Of a stretch of DNA of 49,719 nucleotides, positions 27,300 to 44,336 are shown piece after piece. Both the position numbers and the translations under genes were made by a program. Where the stretch lies: the IMG/VR virus record IMGVR_UViG_3300027905_000008, positions 1 through 49,719 of that record. One strand, written 5' to 3'. Within the stretch, counting starts at the first letter, position 1, and the number at the start of each line of letters is the position of its first letter. Under the pieces are notes generated by a model. That model was not told the DNA's origin, did not search any database, and saw nothing but the letters and a program-made list of their open reading frames with translations. The DNA comes from a virus.

Positions 27300-30200
27300 T
27301 TATCGCTGCGGGGCATTGTGGGAGGCCATTCGGGTAATTGTCTCCCGCACGGCAGCGTGGGACTGTTCCTCGATGCGCCGCACTTCCTTCTGGACGTCGG
27401 CATCCTTCATGCCGTGGAAACGCGGCAAGAGTGATTGGAGCTGAGACTTGATGCGCTGGCCGGAGACCTGCCGGTAGGTGGCGTATTCCTTGTCCGTCAT
27501 CTGCCGGTTGCCTATCTTCGTGTCCCTGGGGGGCTCGGAAATGGCGATGTTCCTGCGGTTTAGCTCCTGGCGTAGAGGATCGGCTTTCTCGGGGCTGAAG
27601 AAACGCTGCGTCGGCGTGTACGTGATTGGATCTCCGAGGGCATCCGTGCGCACTTCGCCGCCGCGCCGGACGAACGGGATCTGCTGTTTCGCAAGCTCGC
27701 CGGGAGTTGAGGCCTCCCGTTGGCGCGGGTCGAGCGCCTGGTCTATCTGGCGCACGATTCCCGGGACAACGGTGCTCGCCGTTGTAGCCATGAGGAAGCG
27801 ACCAACCTTGCCCGCGGAGGTCTTGCCCCCCGCGAAATCCGCGAGATTCGACAACCCCTCTAGCATCGGCGTATCCATGATGCCGCGCATCGAGGCACCT
27901 ACGGCATCCGCCACGCGGCTCCCCAGCAGCATCTCGTCGGGGCGTCTCTCAAATCGCAAGGCATCGGCCACGTTGCCCGCCACAGACAGCGGCACGGCAA
28001 GCGGCGTGTACATGTAGTTGTACCACTTGTCGCCTATCTTGACGGAGTGCGGCCTCCAGCCGGTCTGCTGGAGCTGCATCTTGCGGGCGTAGTCCTTGGG
28101 GCCCTCACCGGACACATCGAAGTAGTGCTTGGCCTCCTTGGAGCGGTCGGCGTGGCGCGAAACGGCCTGCTGAACCAAGCCTCCCATGAGAAGACTGCCG
28201 GCCACGCTCTTGATCGCAAGCCGCGTGCGATCGTCGGCGGTCATCGCCACAGACTCTCCGGTTGCACCGCGCGTGCCTATGGCAGCCCGCTTCAACCCGA
28301 CGGGCGTATAGTTGAGCGACTCGTTCAGGAGATTGGTAGGGATGCGGATGAACGGCAGGAACGGCTTCAGTATGGGGATTCCCGCCACCTTGACCTTGTT
28401 GTTGATGGCGTCTTGCAGGACGCGGTACACGATCCCGAGAACGCCGGTCGGCTCCTGCTTGTAGACCGCCTGCTCGCCGAATGCGTGCGCTGCGGCCTGT
28501 CCCTCAGGCATCGTGGCGGCGCGGTGTTCCTGGACAAGCTGGGCAATCCTGAGACCCGCATCCGATCCCTTGAAGCCCTCGGCCTCGGCACGGGCCTTGA
28601 ACATGGCAAACTGGTTGGCGCTCACCCCAAGCGTTTCCTTGACCTTGGAGGCCAATTCCGCGCCCTTGTACTGGCCCTCCAGAAGCTTCGTGGCCGCGAG
28701 CTTGGCGTAGGCTTCGCGGGCGGGCGCGTAAAAGAACGCCTCGAGGGCCCTGAAGGCCCGTGGCACGTACTTCATGACGGCCGGGTAAGGGGCCTTGACA
28801 GACTCGAGCGTGCTGATCTGGTACGGGGCGCCTTCGCCCTTGGTCTGACCGCCCTTGAGTGGGTTGTAGCCCACGGCGCCCTTGCCCTCGGACATGACGC
28901 CCTTGGCCCGGGTAAGACCCTCGCCGAGGCCGGACAGCCAGCCGCTCACGATGTCCCCGACGTGCGCCGGATTTGCCGCAATGGCCGTGGCCATCTGTGC
29001 ACTCCCGTTGGCTATGTCACCAAGCGTCTTAACGGGCACCGCTGTCGACAGCATGTGGGCGTACCACAGGCTGCTCCCGACGTCGATTGCCCTCTGCCAA
29101 CGGCTCGGCTCCTTGGCGCGGTGGATTGCCGTCGCCAGATCGAGCGTGGCACGGGCCTTGCCAGCCGGATCTGCGGCTGTCGAAACAGCGTCCGCCAGCT
29201 TGCCGATCTTTTCCAGCGTCTCGGGCTTGGCCTCGGGTAGATGCAACTCACGGACAACCGCGTCATGGACGTCGGCACGCGAGAGCGCCCCAAGGTTGTT
29301 CAGCGAAACGGCCTTGTCGACCGCGTTGAACACCTTCTTGGCACGCAGCGAATTGGTGAAGCGGTTCTTGAGCGCCGTCAGCGCCTTCTCGCGCTCCTCG
29401 GCGTACATCGCCTTGGCCCTGTCCGTGAGATCGCTGGCAAGTCGAGTGGCGTCGGCGCCCGTGATGCCTGCGTCTTTGACGAGCGCATCGGCAATGTCGC
29501 CTGCCGTGGAATCGCTCTTCGACAGGTGCTCTCGTGCAATTTGCACGGCGCGCACCCCCATCGCCTTGTGGGCCTCCTTGATGGCCTTTGTGAGCAGCCT
29601 GTCAGAATACGGACGAAGCCCCATATTCGCCAGTTCCGTGTCAATGAGATCGAGCGCTGGGCTGCCCTCGCCGTAGCGCTTCTCAAACTCGGCGCGCACC
29701 GTCGTCAGGACATCCGCATACTTTTCCTTGTTGTCCACGGCTTCCTTGAGCATGTCGGCGGCCGTGGGCGGCGGTGTCTCGGCGCCGGGCTTTTCGGGCA
29801 GGAGCGGCTTAATGCGGGCGCGCATCTCCGCAACGATCCTGTTCGTGAACTCCTTGAGCGGGGCCTGTTCTTTCGGCGGCTCGGCGGTTGATTCAACCAA
29901 AGCGACCATGCGATCCGTCGCGCTCTCGCGGTACTGGTCCCAGATCGTCTTGTCGACAGGCACCTCGCGCCCGAGCGCCTTGTTGAGATCGCGCGTCGCA
30001 CGGTCTATCGCCTTCTGCTTCGCTTCGTCCATGGCCTTCTGGGCGTCATCTAGGGCCTTCTGCCCGTCACCCCCGAGCTTCTTCTCCTGGGCGGCCTGGA
30101 CGTCCGAAATATGCTCGTCGACAGCCGCGGTCTTCACGTTGCGCTTGAGTTGGGCATACATGGCGATCTGCTGGCCGACCTCTGTCCCGCCTGGCGCTAT

Positions 30201-33200
30201 GCGGCTTGAGATGGCCTGACGCTCGCGGAGGGCCTTGGCCTTCTCTGGGCCAGACTTGGCATTGAAGAATTTCTCGTCAGCAGCCTCGATCGAGCGGACA
30301 TGGATCGCGCTCTTGACCGGCAGCGGAACACCGTCGTCGGCCTTGGACATCGAAATGTCCATCGCCTTCTCCGGCCCGTGTTCCTTGATGATCGCATCGG
30401 CCGCCTCTAGATCGGGCTCCTGCGGGCGTCTCTCAAAGGTCTGCCTCACGATGGCCGCATTCCTCTCACGCTCCGTGTCCGGCAGGCTGCGGAAGAAGCG
30501 TCCCTTCTGGCCGGGCACGGGCTGCGGCTTGTTCGGCACGGGTGGAGCGCCGCGCCCCTCGGCGGACTTGCTCACGCGATCCCATATGGCTTGCAAGTGG
30601 GGCTTAACCGCCTCCCCGAAATCCTTTATCATCTGGGTTGACCATGCGCCAAATTCCCGCAGGCCCCGCTCGAAATGCGCGGTGCCCTTGACGAACGCAG
30701 CCGCAAGGATCTGCGCGGCTTCGCCTGCGGCTCCCGGCTCGACCGCGCCAGCCTCGCCCTTCAGGTCCGTCCGGCCGCCCTTTCGCGCGGCGCGTTTGGC
30801 GAGCACCGCGTCCGCCCACTTCTCGGCCGTCGTACCCGAGACGACGCCGGTCTTGACCTGAGCCGAGACATCCTTGGGTAAGCCGAGTTCCATCTGTTCG
30901 GGCGGCTTGGCAGTAGCCGCAGTTTCACCAGTAGGCGCCTTTTCACTGGCGAGTGAAACTGCCTTCTCCGGTGAAATCATCTTCTCGACCGCGGCCAGCC
31001 GTTCGCGGACGCCAGCGACACGGGCGCGGCCCTTGGCCTCCGTCGCCGCATCGCCGCTCCCGGCCTGCTCGTGCGCCTGATCGAGTTGCGCCCGCAGCTT
31101 GTCCGCCACCGCCTCCAGCTTGGCGCGATGTACCGCCTCCGGCCCTACGGCTTCGGCATTACCGCCGGCTCGTTCTCCTCGGGGTGGTCCTCCCTGTACC
31201 TGCTCAGGTGCGCCTCGTGCGCCCGCATGTGGCTCTCGTGGTCCCTCATTGCCGCCTCGTGGTGCCTCATGTGGCTCTCGTGGGCCGCCATGTGCAGGTG
31301 GTGCTCCTCCTTCTCGTTGGGGACCGACGGCCCCCGGTGCAGGCTTCTCGCTACCGCTTCGTTTCCGTATGCGCTCATTTGATTTCTCTCCTGTGGCTGG
31401 TGCCTCCGTCTCAGGAGGCGTTGTGGTTGAAATTCCTTCACCCGGTACGGGAATACCCTGCTTCCGCAGTGTCTCGGCGCTCACCGTGCTGCCCTTGGGA
31501 TGGTCTGGGATGTCGTGCTTCAGGTTGTATAGGTCGATGCCCGGATCCCCCGGCTCGACGCCCTCTTGGTGGCCGATGAATGCGGCGTGCTCATTGGAGG
31601 GAAACTCCTTTCTTACCGCCCCCTCGGGCTTTGGAACAGCCGGCGCGTTTGGTGCTTCGACCCGCTCTTGCGGGCGTTCGACAGCACTACCGCGATTCTC
31701 TGCTTGTCCGCTCGGGCCTTCCCGAACTTCGCTTCCGTGTGCTGGTACGTTGGCCCCTTCCCGAACTCGCGGAAGTTCTGGGCTTGGACCTCTTTGCTCT
31801 TTCCCGGTAGTATTGGCATTGGATTTCGGTGTCTCTGCCGGCGGCGTTACCTGGCCCGCTGCTTCCGCAGCTTCGGCCGCCTGACCGGCATGGGTTTGTT
31901 TCTCGGCCTCTGTGCGTGGAATGGGTTCGTTGTGCGGCAGTTCAAGCGGCACGGCGGCGTTCGCCCCGGGCGTTCCGGGCTTGGCGACGTCGGCAGGCTT
32001 TGCCGGTTCCGCTGCCGGTTTCGCCCCGAGAATCTGCTCTCTCAGTCCAGGCGCCTCGCGGGTCTCCGGCTCTGCTTCCGCTGCCGGTTTCGCTGGGGGC
32101 GTCTCGGGCGTCTTTGGGGCCGTCTCCGGTCCCTTGGGAGGACCGCCCTTGGGGCCCTTGAGGCCCTTGGCGAGCCCGACGGTCCCGGCACCCGCGCCGG
32201 CGGTCATCGCGGCCTGTAGGACAACGCCAGCGACGGCTCGTGCGCGATCCGCCCGGGTGGATTTCGGGTCGGCCAGCACCTTCTTCGCCTCCTGATAGGC
32301 ATGGACCGTGCCCATGGCCCCTTGGGCGGTGAAGGTGCCCAGCGTCGCCGCCTGAGCGCCCCTTGCGGCGAGCGCCATCCGCGTGCCCTGAACGAGTGCG
32401 TCCTCGACTGCCCCGCCGCCTGCGGTGGCTGCCAAAAGGAGCACATTCTCGGGGGTCGAAAGCGAGGAGGCGAACTCATTGGCCGCGTCGATGATCCCGG
32501 CTGCCGTGCCCGTGCCCTGAGCCTTGGGGATCGTGAACAGGCTGCCCTTGGTCCCGGCGGCTTCGCTGCCGATCGCGGGAGGGGCCTTCTCTGGCTCGGT
32601 CGGGCCGTACCCGTGCGTGCCAAAGATCATCTTGAGGCGCTCGATCGGCGACGCCTTCTCCCAATCCCGGCCAAGGGTTGTCTGGCCCGGACGGGGCGGC
32701 GGCTGGTTCCCGGCCGGGGCACTCACCGGGATCGGCGCGACCGGCCCTGTCGGCTGCGCTGGTCGGGGAGGGGGCGGCTTGGGCGTCGTGTCCTCGTTCC
32801 CCGCAGGCACCGCGCCGGGCGCTGTGATCGGTCCCGGGGCCGCCGGCAGTGGTCGATTCTGGGCAAGGTTTTGAGCCACCTTGCCATGAAATCCGATGGC
32901 GTCGAACAACTGTTGCTTCTTGGCCAGAATGCTCTGGAGGGTCGCATCGGTATCCGGGTTCAAGGCCTGTGCCTTGATGATAGCCCGGCGTTCTGCCTCG
33001 AGGAAGGTTGTCGCATGGTATTCGGCCGTCGCCCGGTGAAGGCTCACCTCCATGTTGGCCTGCCGGTTCGCCCAATAGAGTTGGCCGCCTGGCTGCACCG
33101 AGTCCCATGCCTTGCCAGCCTGATCGTCGATCGCCTGCTTCTGCGCCTGTAACGCGGCGACCTGCGCATGAAGGCCCTGATTGGCCGGCGTGGGCTTCGC

Positions 33201-34268
33201 ACCGATGGACAAGAATCCGCCGGCTTCCTCGTTGAACTTCGGGTCGGCCGACAGCGCGTCGATCCGCGCCTGTAGCGGAGTGGTATCGAATTCGCTGCCG
33301 GGTTGCGGCACGCCGTTGCGGTCGAACTTCGCCTGCGCGGTCTCGAAATCGTCCTTGGCCTGATCGGCGTGCATCTGGATCGGGATGATCGCCTCCTTCC
33401 ATTGGGCCGAATTGCGTGCGCCGACCGCGCGGATCGCGGCACGCGCCGTCTGGATGTTCGGGCTATTGGCCAAGTCTTCGGCCCTGCCGGCCGGGACGGT
33501 CGATCCATCCTTCTTTCGCCAATACATCTGCTCGTCAGTGATGTCCGGGCTCGCCTCAAGCGGAAGCGCCTTCGTCTGCTTCTGGTGGAACCTGTCGTAC
33601 ATCTCCTGCACAGGCGTCCCCTTGGCGTCCACCGCATCCCGCCACGGAACCTCGTGGTACAGCGGCCGCCCGCTCGCCGTGTCCATCAGCGGCTCCCATG
33701 TCCCGGTCGCCTCGTTCTTATACATCTGCTGGCCGTTGCCACGCAACTGCGCCTCACGCTGGGCCTGCACGTCGCGCTGGTATTCCTGTTGGGCGCCTAT
33801 CGCATCCCGGCGCGCCTGCAATGTCTCTTGATCCGACTGGCGCTCGGCCCGCTGGTAGTGCTCGGCCGGCGTCGCCGGCATCTCGAACGACGTCTTGAAC
33901 GGGTTCTGTTCGGACCAGTCTTTTGCGAATGCCTCATCCGCCTGCTTGTGGGCGGCCGCATAACGCTCCTCCTGCGACGGCTCTTCATACGGCTCGGGCG
34001 CTACCGGGGCGGGGGCCGCGGCCGGTGCCGGCGGCTTGTAGCCTGCCGACGGAGTCCCAAATCCCTGTGCCGCAAACTGACGGGTAATATCAGCCGGCGT
34101 CTGCGTACCCGTGGGCATCACCGGGGCTGGTTGCGCCGGGGCCTCGGCTGGCTCCGCTTGGGTCTCTGGCTTTTCTGGCGCGGGCTGCGCCGGCGCCTTC
34201 TCGGGCTGCGGCGTCAGTTCCTCGCCCGGATCAACCTCGCGGTCGGCGGGATCGTTGGAAGACGGCAT
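27300..34268 (-). CDS. Giant virion protein (2322 residues), probable DNA-ejection or internal protein
   Basis: This continuous 2322-codon frame starts at MPSSNDPADREVDPGEEL. Parts in order: Pro/Glu/Ala linker (1-110); charged helices (110-560); a hydrophobic helical block (about 600-700, LLLAATAGGGAVEDALVQG…VVLQAAMTAGAGAGTVGLAKG); a low-complexity zone (~750-1060) with a short ordered island (HAAFIGHQEGVEPGDPGIDLYNLKH); long charged helices (1060-1720); and a second hydrophobic half (~1720-2050, SSLWYAHMLSTAVPVKTLGD, AGSLLMGGLVQQAV). The size, helical content and place between portal and terminase suit large internal or ejection proteins. No RNA polymerase, lysozyme or protease motif is seen. 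Two other genes lie out of frame within it. Confidence 0.75.
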   Translation of the reverse strand: MPSSNDPADREVDPGEELTPQPEKAPAQPAPEKPETQAEPAEAPAQPAPVMPTGTQTPADITRQFAAQGFGTPSAGYKPPAPAAAPAPVAPEPYEEPSQEERYAAAHKQADEAFAKDWSEQNPFKTSFEMPATPAEHYQRAERQSDQETLQARRDAIGAQQEYQRDVQAQREAQLRGNGQQMYKNEATGTWEPLMDTASGRPLYHEVPWRDAVDAKGTPVQEMYDRFHQKQTKALPLEASPDITDEQMYWRKKDGSTVPAGRAEDLANSPNIQTARAAIRAVGARNSAQWKEAIIPIQMHADQAKDDFETAQAKFDRNGVPQPGSEFDTTPLQARIDALSADPKFNEEAGGFLSIGAKPTPANQGLHAQVAALQAQKQAIDDQAGKAWDSVQPGGQLYWANRQANMEVSLHRATAEYHATTFLEAERRAIIKAQALNPDTDATLQSILAKKQQLFDAIGFHGKVAQNLAQNRPLPAAPGPITAPGAVPAGNEDTTPKPPPPRPAQPTGPVAPIPVSAPAGNQPPPRPGQTTLGRDWEKASPIERLKMIFGTHGYGPTEPEKAPPAIGSEAAGTKGSLFTIPKAQGTGTAAGIIDAANEFASSLSTPENVLLLAATAGGGAVEDALVQGTRMALAARGAQAATLGTFTAQGAMGTVHAYQEAKKVLADPKSTRADRARAVAGVVLQAAMTAGAGAGTVGLAKGLKGPKGGPPKGPETAPKTPETPPAKPAAEAEPETREAPGLREQILGAKPAAEPAKPADVAKPGTPGANAAVPLELPHNEPIPRTEAEKQTHAGQAAEAAEAAGQVTPPAETPKSNANTTGKEQRGPSPELPRVREGANVPAHGSEVREGPSGQAENRGSAVERPQERVEAPNAPAVPKPEGAVRKEFPSNEHAAFIGHQEGVEPGDPGIDLYNLKHDIPDHPKGSTVSAETLRKQGIPVPGEGISTTTPPETEAPATGEKSNERIRKRSGSEKPAPGAVGPQREGGAPPAHGGPREPHEAPRGGNEGPREPHAGARGAPEQVQGGPPRGERAGGNAEAVGPEAVHRAKLEAVADKLRAQLDQAHEQAGSGDAATEAKGRARVAGVRERLAAVEKMISPEKAVSLASEKAPTGETAATAKPPEQMELGLPKDVSAQVKTGVVSGTTAEKWADAVLAKRAARKGGRTDLKGEAGAVEPGAAGEAAQILAAAFVKGTAHFERGLREFGAWSTQMIKDFGEAVKPHLQAIWDRVSKSAEGRGAPPVPNKPQPVPGQKGRFFRSLPDTERERNAAIVRQTFERRPQEPDLEAADAIIKEHGPEKAMDISMSKADDGVPLPVKSAIHVRSIEAADEKFFNAKSGPEKAKALRERQAISSRIAPGGTEVGQQIAMYAQLKRNVKTAAVDEHISDVQAAQEKKLGGDGQKALDDAQKAMDEAKQKAIDRATRDLNKALGREVPVDKTIWDQYRESATDRMVALVESTAEPPKEQAPLKEFTNRIVAEMRARIKPLLPEKPGAETPPPTAADMLKEAVDNKEKYADVLTTVRAEFEKRYGEGSPALDLIDTELANMGLRPYSDRLLTKAIKEAHKAMGVRAVQIAREHLSKSDSTAGDIADALVKDAGITGADATRLASDLTDRAKAMYAEEREKALTALKNRFTNSLRAKKVFNAVDKAVSLNNLGALSRADVHDAVVRELHLPEAKPETLEKIGKLADAVSTAADPAGKARATLDLATAIHRAKEPSRWQRAIDVGSSLWYAHMLSTAVPVKTLGDIANGSAQMATAIAANPAHVGDIVSGWLSGLGEGLTRAKGVMSEGKGAVGYNPLKGGQTKGEGAPYQISTLESVKAPYPAVMKYVPRAFRALEAFFYAPAREAYAKLAATKLLEGQYKGAELASKVKETLGVSANQFAMFKARAEAEGFKGSDAGLRIAQLVQEHRAATMPEGQAAAHAFGEQAVYKQEPTGVLGIVYRVLQDAINNKVKVAGIPILKPFLPFIRIPTNLLNESLNYTPVGLKRAAIGTRGATGESVAMTADDRTRLAIKSVAGSLLMGGLVQQAVSRHADRSKEAKHYFDVSGEGPKDYARKMQLQQTGWRPHSVKIGDKWYNYMYTPLAVPLSVAGNVADALRFERRPDEMLLGSRVADAVGASMRGIMDTPMLEGLSNLADFAGGKTSAGKVGRFLMATTASTVVPGIVRQIDQALDPRQREASTPGELAKQQIPFVRRGGEVRTDALGDPITYTPTQRFFSPEKADPLRQELNRRNIAISEPPRDTKIGNRQMTDKEYATYRQVSGQRIKSQLQSLLPRFHGMKDADVQKEVRRIEEQSHAAVRETITRMASHNAPQR
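31145..31378 (-). CDS. Nested out-of-frame gene 2: His/Glu/Met-rich helical protein
   Basis: Lies inside the giant gene in another frame. ATG 31378 is preceded by AGGAG (31388-31392) with 9 nt spacing, a near-ideal ribosome binding site and rare here. The 77-residue product starts MSAYGNEAVARSLHRGPSVP and then repeats a helix unit (HMAAHESHMRHHEAAM, RDHESHMRAHEAHL) before an acidic tail. Counting by hand, 70 of its 77 codons end in G or C. The giant frame over the same DNA drops to about 40% and gives low-complexity GGPREPHEAPRGG. Function unknown; histidine-rich helices may bind metal. The repeat could also produce open frames by chance, which lowers certainty. Confidence 0.65.
   Translation of the reverse strand: MSAYGNEAVARSLHRGPSVPNEKEEHHLHMAAHESHMRHHEAAMRDHESHMRAHEAHLSRYREDHPEENEPAVMPKP
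31613..31819 (-). CDS. Nested out-of-frame gene 1: small phage protein (KSxE…KQRIAVxLSNARKSG)
   Basis: Lies inside the giant gene, in the same alternative frame as the gene at 31145. The 68-residue product (MPILPGKSKEVQAQNFREFG … GKARADKQRIAVVLSNARKSG) follows a pattern common in tiny phage proteins: KSKKxxxxNIxE…GxPxKQAVAIALSxARKxG. About 81% of its codons end in G or C by my count, against about 47% for the giant frame over the same bases. There the giant product is low-complexity (GPSPELPRVREGANVPAHG). No strong Shine-Dalgarno is seen. Function of the family is unknown. Confidence 0.65.
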   Translation of the reverse strand: MPILPGKSKEVQAQNFREFGKGPTYQHTEAKFGKARADKQRIAVVLSNARKSGSKHQTRRLFQSPRGR

Positions 34269-42391: not shown

Positions 42392-42958
42392 TCAGGACTT
42401 GATGAACCACCAAGATGAGCACCAAGTCACATGGGGTCTTGTGTCGATTCTCTCGGCAAAGTCGAGCACGGCGTTTAGCGCGTCCGAGTTGGTGTCCTTG
42501 AGGCGCGTGTAGAAATCGTGGCCCGAGAACAGGCCTCCGCTTCGGACCTTGGGATACCACGCGGCTATGTCGGCGCTCGACGCCTCGTAGCTGTGATTCC
42601 CGTCGAGCCAAACGAAGTCCAGTTCGCCGTCGCGGAAACGCGGGGCCGCATCCAGGCTGTCCATGCGCCAGAACGTAGACCGCTTATTGTAGGCGTAGAG
42701 ATTTGCCTGCGCCTCGGCGAACACCTGGTCTTGGTCGCGGTCCTGCGTGCTGTCGAAATACTCGGCCTGGGTGAATTTCCGGTACGGATCCACCAGCACG
42801 AGCCTGCGGACGGAGGTGCCTTCCAAGATCAGCTTGGCGCCCTCGCCCAGAAACACCCCGACCTCGACGCCCACGTTCGTCAGTCCGTGCCGATCGAGAA
42901 ACGCCCCGATCTCGGTGCGGTAGTCTATTTCTCGCAGGATGGGGTTGCAGGGCTTCAT
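42392..42958 (-). CDS. SAM-dependent methyltransferase (class I)
   Basis: A 188-residue protein. AdoMet motif I is VGVEVGVFLGEGAKLIL (29-45) and motif II is RLVLVDPYRKF. Post-motif LDFVWLDGNHSYEASSADIAAWYPKVRSGGLFSGHDFY is typical of the Methyltransf_24 group, often found in sugar and glycan clusters. Its ATG overlaps the stop of the FkbM gene (ATGA). The acceptor is unknown; a sugar hydroxyl is plausible given the neighbours. Confidence 0.8.
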   Translation of the reverse strand: MKPCNPILREIDYRTEIGAFLDRHGLTNVGVEVGVFLGEGAKLILEGTSVRRLVLVDPYRKFTQAEYFDSTQDRDQDQVFAEAQANLYAYNKRSTFWRMDSLDAAPRFRDGELDFVWLDGNHSYEASSADIAAWYPKVRSGGLFSGHDFYTRLKDTNSDALNAVLDFAERIDTRPHVTWCSSWWFIKS

Positions 42959-43653
42959 TTCGGCAGGCAGAGAATGTCCCTTTGGGCGTCAGCGGGCCCG
43001 CGCCCCGGCTCGAGCTCGGTGTAGCCGTACCCGATGGAGTCCAAGAGCGAGTAGACGTCGCCTTGGGTCATGCCGTAGCGCCCAAGGCAGGCGTGGTTGA
43101 TCTCGATGACCATGGCGGGCTTAAATTTCTTGATCGTCTCCGTGGCGCCCATGATCGCCCGCGGTTCGAAGCCCTCGCAGTCCAAATGGATCAAGTCGAG
43201 GCGGGTGAGGTCCTCCAAGAAGTTGTCGAGTCGCGTCACCCACACCATTATCGACCGGTCACCGGGCACGGATATGTGCGATGCCCCGGCGTTGTCTTCG
43301 ACCACGAAGAATGCAGGCTCTTGGAAGTCCGATAAGCCAAATGGCCTAGTCTCAACTTGAGGCCACATACGGGTGTTCCTAGTCAGGGCATAGTACGCTT
43401 CCGGGTATGGTTCGAAGGCCCACACTGCTCCCTCCGGCCCCACCATCTGCGCATACGTGGCCGCGTGATCGCCCAGACAGGCTCCCGCGTCGACCACGGT
43501 CCCGCCCTTGGGGATGTACTTAGCGTATAGCGAAATCGCTTGGATACCGACCTCGAGGGTCCCGTGCAGTTCGATCCAGCGGCTCAGGTGCGTGTCGTTC
43601 TTGAGCACGTACACTCCGCCGGGCGTGCGGATGATCTCCTGGGGCGGCGTCAT
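42955..43653 (-). CDS. FkbM-family methyltransferase
   Basis: Start ATG 43653 (MTPPQEIIRTPGGVYVL), overlapping the preceding stop; 232 residues. AdoMet site GGTVVDAGACLGDHAATYAQ (49-68) and GAVWAFEPYPEAYYAL. RLDNFLEDLTRLDLIHLDCEGFEPRAIMGATETI carries the KIDCEG-like FkbM signature. FkbM enzymes O-methylate sugars and polyketides, and occur in surface-glycan clusters. It is one of a tandem pair. Confidence 0.82.
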   Translation of the reverse strand: MTPPQEIIRTPGGVYVLKNDTHLSRWIELHGTLEVGIQAISLYAKYIPKGGTVVDAGACLGDHAATYAQMVGPEGAVWAFEPYPEAYYALTRNTRMWPQVETRPFGLSDFQEPAFFVVEDNAGASHISVPGDRSIMVWVTRLDNFLEDLTRLDLIHLDCEGFEPRAIMGATETIKKFKPAMVIEINHACLGRYGMTQGDVYSLLDSIGYGYTELEPGRGPADAQRDILCLPK

Positions 43654-44336
43654 AGCGGCCGGCACAGCCAGTCCCAGCGCGGCGGCTCGCCCCACATCTC
43701 GAGGCCGTAGCCGAGATCCTTGATCGTGTCCGTGAGTTGCTTGGCCGTGAAGCCGGCCTGTTCCAAGCCGCCCACGAAGTGCTCGACGTAGAGAACGGGA
43801 TGGTCGCGCCCGATGAGTCCCGTGGCGCCATTCAGCGTTGGAATCTCGAAGCCCTCGCAGTCGATCTTGATGAGCTTCACCTTGGGGATGCCCGTCCGCA
43901 GCAGCGCATCGAGCTTGAACGTGTAGATCACGTCCGCGGCCTCGGGGTTGCAGGCCGCCACGCGGCGCATCCCGTAGTTCGGGCCCGGGCACTCGTACAC
44001 CAGCTTGACCGCCTCTCCGTTGCCCACCGGCTGGTTGAACGCCTGGATCAGGCGCCCGCGGGTGTTATAGAGCATGGCCGTATAGGCGTCCAGGAACGGT
44101 TCGAACGCCACGACATGGGCCCCTCGGTCCAGCATGGGGACGGCCGTGTCCCCTATGAAGGCCCCGACGTCTATGCACACGTCGCCGATCCCGACGGCGC
44201 AGGCATCCATGAGGCGCGGCATGTCCTCGTCGACGTCGATCCGCCTGCGCTGCTCCGCAAGGACCGGGTGCGCGGTGTCGCCGACGATTCCCAGGAAGTC
44301 GCCGAAGCTATACTTTTGGAGGCTGAATTGTTTCAT
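43650..44336 (-). CDS. FkbM-family methyltransferase
   Basis: A 228-residue protein, paralogue of the next gene downstream. AdoMet motif GDVCIDVGAFIGDTAVPML (51-69) and HVVAFEPFLDAYTAMLYNTRG. FkbM signature VKLIKIDCEGFEIPTLNGATGLI. It starts inside the end of the upstream gene (29-nt overlap). The two copies may methylate different positions of one glycan. Confidence 0.82.
   Translation of the reverse strand: MKQFSLQKYSFGDFLGIVGDTAHPVLAEQRRRIDVDEDMPRLMDACAVGIGDVCIDVGAFIGDTAVPMLDRGAHVVAFEPFLDAYTAMLYNTRGRLIQAFNQPVGNGEAVKLVYECPGPNYGMRRVAACNPEAADVIYTFKLDALLRTGIPKVKLIKIDCEGFEIPTLNGATGLIGRDHPVLYVEHFVGGLEQAGFTAKQLTDTIKDLGYGLEMWGEPPRWDWLCRPL

Follow-up and report, generated by a model that had tools for sequence, protein, structure and literature searches.

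Small phage genes nested in other genes are well known from Rz1, which lies in Rz of lambda, and from B, E and K of phiX174. The gene described here resembles these in being located wholly within another gene, out of frame and with its own start. However, Rz1 and Rz form a lysis pair and the phiX174 genes belong to a tiny genome, whereas in this case the host gene encodes a virion-type protein of 2,322 aa. Moreover, unlike in lambda and phiX174, one of the two small genes at this locus (nested gene 1) belongs to a family that is otherwise free-standing, and the other (nested gene 2, the subject of this analysis) belongs to no known family. A second parallel is the overlap between the polymerase spacer and pre-S of hepatitis B virus (HBV), described as modular overprinting, with the shorter gene located between two domains of the long protein, and for which a fusion of neighbours across the small gene has been proposed (PMC8227390). 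Like the HBV spacer, the giant frame appears to cross a shorter gene as a linker that joins domains, and the codon usage of the small frame looks the older one here. Unlike in HBV, the setting is a dsDNA tailed phage with several unrelated small genes and no reverse transcriptase, and the small genes are fully nested, have their own Shine-Dalgarno (SD) sequence and show turnover. Two protein families complete the comparison. The likeness to the T7 gp16-like internal virion protein D concerns the C-terminal region of the giant, the best known relative of which is shorter, and the small phage proteins of DUF6496 (PF20106) are resembled by nested gene 1, as well as by the related genes of six other giants and of about 29 further loci, nested gene 2 being unmatched.

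The window, i.e. the whole stretch of DNA that was analysed, is a virus record of 49,719 bases; the features discussed are listed in Table 1. Nested gene 2 is a complete ORF with its own start and stop, wholly within the giant ORF and in a different frame. We judge, with a probability of roughly 0.85, that ORF 31378-31145, the translation of which we infer from the sequence, is a genuine protein-coding gene lying out of frame within the gene of a giant phage protein. This judgement is based on two coding signatures, on the same heptad design in a relative and on the selection observed on the small frame of the sister gene, nested gene 1.

Table 1. Position of the nested genes and of the surrounding giant frame in the window
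Feature	Position	Strand	Description
Host giant ORF	27300..34268	minus	2,322 aa; its C-terminal region is a relative of the podovirus internal virion protein D (T7 gp16-like)
Nested gene 1	31613..31819	minus	68-aa DUF6496-like protein (MPILPGKS...NARKSGSK); same alternative frame as nested gene 2
Giant-frame island between the nested genes	31420..31612	minus	host GC3 recovers
Shine-Dalgarno AGGAG of nested gene 2	31388..31392	minus	9-nt spacing to ATG 31378
Nested gene 2 (the finding)	31145..31378	minus	77-aa protein; TAG stop; long His/Met heptad helix predicted for residues 22-64
Giant-frame low-complexity linker over nested gene 2	31119..31418	minus	host GC3 0.38-0.46, GC1 0.80-0.98

The original prediction of an ATG inside another gene, preceded by a well-spaced AGGAG, was confirmed, and the gene indeed uses the same alternative frame as the first nested gene. 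An in-frame GTG is located upstream at 31441 and would give a protein of 98 aa, but ATG 31378 is preferred as the start, since it is the ATG that the SD matches. A 5-nt SD match was found for just one of the 27 main ORFs of the window, whose starts were uncurated, and the statement that strong ribosome binding sites are few in this DNA thus holds. SD matches of at least 4 nt precede only 6 of these 27 ORFs (again with uncurated starts), which looks low.

A clear difference between the two frames was found in their codon signature. The fraction of codons ending in G/C (GC3) is 0.91 in nested gene 2, whereas the giant frame has 0.40 over the same codons versus 0.79 elsewhere in the giant, exactly the contrast of about 91% against about 40% that had been claimed. 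GC3 mostly lies between 0.65 and 0.90 along the giant ORF and dips in two patches, at ~31870-31640 and at 31418-31119, the lowest value in any 78-codon window outside these patches being 0.65. In both of them GC1 of the giant climbs to 0.74-0.98. Since the first codon position of the giant coincides with the third of the small genes, the patches correspond to the two nested ORFs.

The expectation by chance was derived from 1,000 simulated giants, in which the giant protein was kept and the codons were resampled synonymously. The probability of an open small frame at nested gene 2 was 0.95 and that of an ATG at its beginning 0.28, and one in two simulated giants contained some alternative-frame ORF of at least 60 aa with an SD. 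Because the simulation yields both so often, openness and an SD alone were dropped as evidence for nested gene 2. A small-minus-host GC3 contrast of at least 0.3, in contrast, occurred in none of the 1,000 simulated giants. These figures bear directly on the reading that the ORF is a chance open frame and that the giant linker merely has rare codons in a Pro/Arg/Gly repeat. Given the residues of the giant such openness is to be expected, and the region does contain an imperfect 42-nt tandem repeat. However, the GC3 swap is absent from all simulations, an SD is present in an SD-poor genome, the same heptad product is encoded in the nearest giant, L063, and nowhere else scanned, and the sister nested gene 1, at a distance of 235 nt, has homologues outside this locus and shows small-frame selection. 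We consider a chance frame very improbable.

The relative codon usage leads in the same direction as the GC3 swap. Its correlation with the rest of the giant is 0.65 for the frame of nested gene 2 and 0.10 for the host frame, and in L063 the values are 0.75 for the small frame and -0.03 for the host frame. Genome-like codon usage in the small and not in the long frame, as would be expected of HBV-type spacer overprinting, was thus found in the window and in L063; it was not found in several AT-rich giants. In AT-rich phages the frame +1 GC3 contrast is less diagnostic, and the codon usage of the host frame is not clearly worse than that of the small frame. With small genes encoded according to the codon usage of the respective phage, an open host frame is obtained with P=0.03 for nested gene 2, and the same calculation gives P<=1e-4 for the small genes nested in L039, L050 and L071. 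In addition, nested copies exceed the GC3 of their own genome by a mean of 0.18 versus 0.07 for free copies (P=0.02). The raised GC3 of the nested copies and the improbable openness of the host frame are consistent with a need for a stop-free giant frame.

Upstream of its ATG the small frame remains open as far as 31441, and it could in principle be reached by ribosomal frameshifting from the giant, as a programmed alternative C-terminus, instead of by internal initiation. Nevertheless, the coding signature starts near the ATG and is absent from the upstream island, the nested genes of L063, L039, L046, L053 and L054 likewise begin with an ATG behind an SD, and the free genes of the nested gene 1 family begin with MPLKxGKS, all of which makes frameshifting highly improbable. 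Least probable of all is a sequencing or assembly error by which separate genes were fused into a false giant ORF. Although the sole exact copy of the locus (IMGVR_UViG_3300032160_000006) is possibly not independent, seven further phages from other samples have a small gene nested likewise and in the same frame, and the host frame is coding again on either side.

The protein predicted from nested gene 2 has His at residues 26, 33, 40, 47 and 54, i.e. at successive heptad positions, and Met or Leu at residues 30, 37, 44, 51 and 58. The AF2 model consists of a single helix from residue 22 to 64 with a pLDDT of ~95 at the core, and the His-rich helix repeat noticed originally can accordingly be described as a His/Met heptad helix. 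Judging from this model, the product is probably a small coiled-coil-like helix with a heptad core of Met/Leu and His that belongs to no known family. Nothing credible was retrieved for the 77-aa product from annotated phages, plasmids, solved structures, Pfam, PHROGs and NCBIfam, where low-complexity masking by BLAST may hide relatives. The annotated-phage, plasmid, structure and family searches likewise did not yield the free-standing homologue that the original prediction had proposed to look for, and the product does not match DUF6496 (PF20106) at the gathering cut-off of 24. Two DNA-pattern matches to HExHMRxHE in IMG/VR were both rejected as unrelated chance matches.

A counterpart is found in L063, which is ~60% identical to the window's giant over the C-terminal 700 aa. 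A single ORF, 109 aa long, is nested in this giant; it shares the relative frame of nested gene 2 and has AAGGAG at 9 nt. A DUF6496-like gene was not seen in this giant. GC3 is 0.90 in the nested ORF versus 0.49 in the host frame, a drop in host GC3 that was never reproduced in simulation. The product has His at residues 51, 58, 65, 72 and 79, again five successive heptad positions, with a hydrophobic residue at +4 in four of the five cases. Shuffling of helix blocks gave probabilities of 1.5e-5 (window) and 1.6e-4 (L063) for a five-His heptad with hydrophobic residues at +4, and in a scan of 3.47 million six-frame residues covering all loci the pattern was limited to these two nested genes. 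The L063 ORF is also the top match to the nested gene 2 product among 5,040 ORFs. The direct alignment score was nevertheless rejected as evidence for homology, as the 27% identity is mostly compositional (block shuffle P=0.16) and the heptad test alone is specific. The putative homology of the two products is therefore derived from the combination of their design and frame with the host gene and the location, and in this sense the product of nested gene 2 is conserved despite low overall identity. Where stop codons in relatives would speak against a small gene, the closest of them, L063, encodes a His-heptad product of its own in that frame. As to function, we speculate that the His-heptad protein is a coiled-coil virion or assembly factor, made together with the giant as its partner, and that it is perhaps metal- or pH-responsive through its histidines.

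Nested gene 1 scored 23.3 bits against DUF6496 (PF20106), just under the cut-off of 24, and its L039 homologue 24.2, which suggests that it is a member or a close relative of that family. It is 47-63% identical to free-standing and nested relatives, and two IMG/VR scans gave the family consensus MPLKxGKS...KFGKxxADKQAVAxALSxAR. The DUF6496-like gene is nested in seven phages (window included), in host ORFs of 1,020-2,322 aa and always in the same relative frame, whereas the ~29 other loci have it either as a free gene or as the beginning of a longer ORF that shares its frame. Several of the nested copies have a strong SD in front of them. The frame is open in 7/7 nested versus 0/29 non-nested family members, a difference that holds partly by definition. 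The content differs between homologous giants: the window has both nested gene 1 and the His gene, L063 only the His gene, and L039 and L050 only nested gene 1. In an AT-rich phage (host GC3 0.32) a DUF6496-like gene (MPLVKAQGKSS...; L071:4629-4802) was found in an ORF of 3,324 aa, in the same relative frame, with a chance below 1e-4 of an open host frame over it. A search of one literature library returned no paper that describes DUF6496-like genes nested in giants.

The products of the window and L063 are too divergent for a codon-rate test on nested gene 2 itself, and the selection result is therefore borrowed from nested gene 1. The giants of L039 and L050, 59% identical over 1,464 aa, formed the pair for the rate test. 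Upstream of nested gene 1 the substitutions per site amount to 0.27, 0.19 and 0.62 at the first, second and third codon position of the giant, and inside it to 0.46, 0.22 and 0.11. The substitutions thus shift from the third position of the giant codons to that of the small-gene codons, so that it is the small frame of nested gene 1 that is under selection; at this sister gene, selection is not confined to the giant frame. The same two giants diverge after about residue 1,450 and have different C-termini, with an internal-virion-protein-like end in L050 only.

The C-terminal 580 aa of the window's giant match phage annotations (internal virion protein D) and phrog_6651 (E=4e-12). Its best known relative, MW202801 (1,121 aa), yielded no nested gene of this kind of signature. 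When genomes were scanned with the C-terminus, one distant Pelagibacteraceae contig was obtained; an HMM of the N-terminal part matched giants only, and no separate gene equal to the N-terminal half was found. For the giant-frame region, AF2 run on the single sequence gave mostly low confidence, which would be expected of a disordered linker. This also affects the stretch between the nested genes, which had been taken for an ordered island: the pLDDT there is only ~50-65, although a module that looks similar by eye precedes the nested genes in L063 and L039. The further idea of a linker zone that collects inserted genes was borne out in that the region appears disordered, has different small genes in different relatives and keeps the host frame open; the insertion of the genes is a putative one.

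Most likely, the overlap originated by a fusion of neighbouring genes across the small gene. The small gene would formerly have been located between virion genes, and the upstream reading frame would then have been extended through it into the next gene. The giant frame would cross the DNA of the small gene in the form of a disordered linker, free of stops and itself little constrained, while ribosomes would start nested gene 2 at its own SD on the late mRNA. The same fusion, or an exchange of small genes at the same place, would have recurred in related and unrelated giants. MW202675 contains a free-standing DUF6496-like gene with an acetyltransferase gene and one annotated as internal virion protein D after it, and on reading the sequences a similar order was seen in L035, L037, L041 and L049. 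The giant frames of L046 and L054 encode a GNAT acetyltransferase domain downstream of the nested gene. This gene order together with the GNAT domain favours a fusion of neighbours, in particular for L046 and L054; the fusion in the window's giant is a putative one. Likewise, the codon usage in the GC-rich cases and the free-standing homologues near virion genes favour a giant frame laid over older small genes.

Alternatively, the small gene may have entered a pre-existing disordered linker of the giant as a cassette. Such an insertion would fit the varying nested content of the homologous giants (window, L063, L039 and L050) and the further nested ORFs from other families in L046. However, an inserted gene must likewise stay stop-free and in frame, which is unlikely for the AT-rich cases, and free-standing DUF6496-like genes adjoin virion and acetyltransferase genes. 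Insertion is for these reasons a possible but rather doubtful origin. Starting from the fusion of neighbours, we see an even chance for a more general proposal: giant ejection-type proteins of tailed phages would repeatedly grow by reading through intergenic small genes, always in one and the same relative frame; genes would thereby fuse with the small gene preserved, the linker would be a by-product of the small-gene code, and the place would serve as an exchange site, including for a new family of His-heptad coiled coils.

Several other overlaps were observed. L046 has two more SD-led nested ORFs of other families (L046:12037-12219 and L046 14387 onward; MSNEKSSELLVHRQ... with AGGAGG and MNKTLPKFLFVQEG... 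with AAGGAG), one in the DUF6496-bearing giant of 1,942 aa and one in a second giant ORF (1,340 aa). A 3,129-aa relative of the window's giant contains a nested ORF of 106 aa (L065:5319-5639; MIANQSNLKSLKHR...) with a GC3 swap of 0.73 vs 0.43. The GNAT acetyltransferase and HATPase domains of the 2,074-aa L054 giant are located within residues 503-571 and 934-1058, and this giant has a weak match to a polyvalent-protein ADP-ribosyltransferase. In the window itself, two minus-strand ORFs at 42955-44336 overlap by ~340 nt, where codon statistics suggest that the downstream ORF (a methyltransferase) starts later than in its longest ORF. Two top-scoring nested candidates elsewhere in the window were rejected, as the host ORF had been wrongly chosen.

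Gene finders normally assign one frame to each stretch of DNA and would therefore discard all of these nested genes; a class of small phage proteins may lie hidden within annotated giants. Read-through fusion over a small gene, the GC-rich third positions of which would hold the other frame stop-free, provides a testable route to very long, linker-rich virion proteins, and codon usage together with the position of substitutions can reveal which of the frames is under selection.
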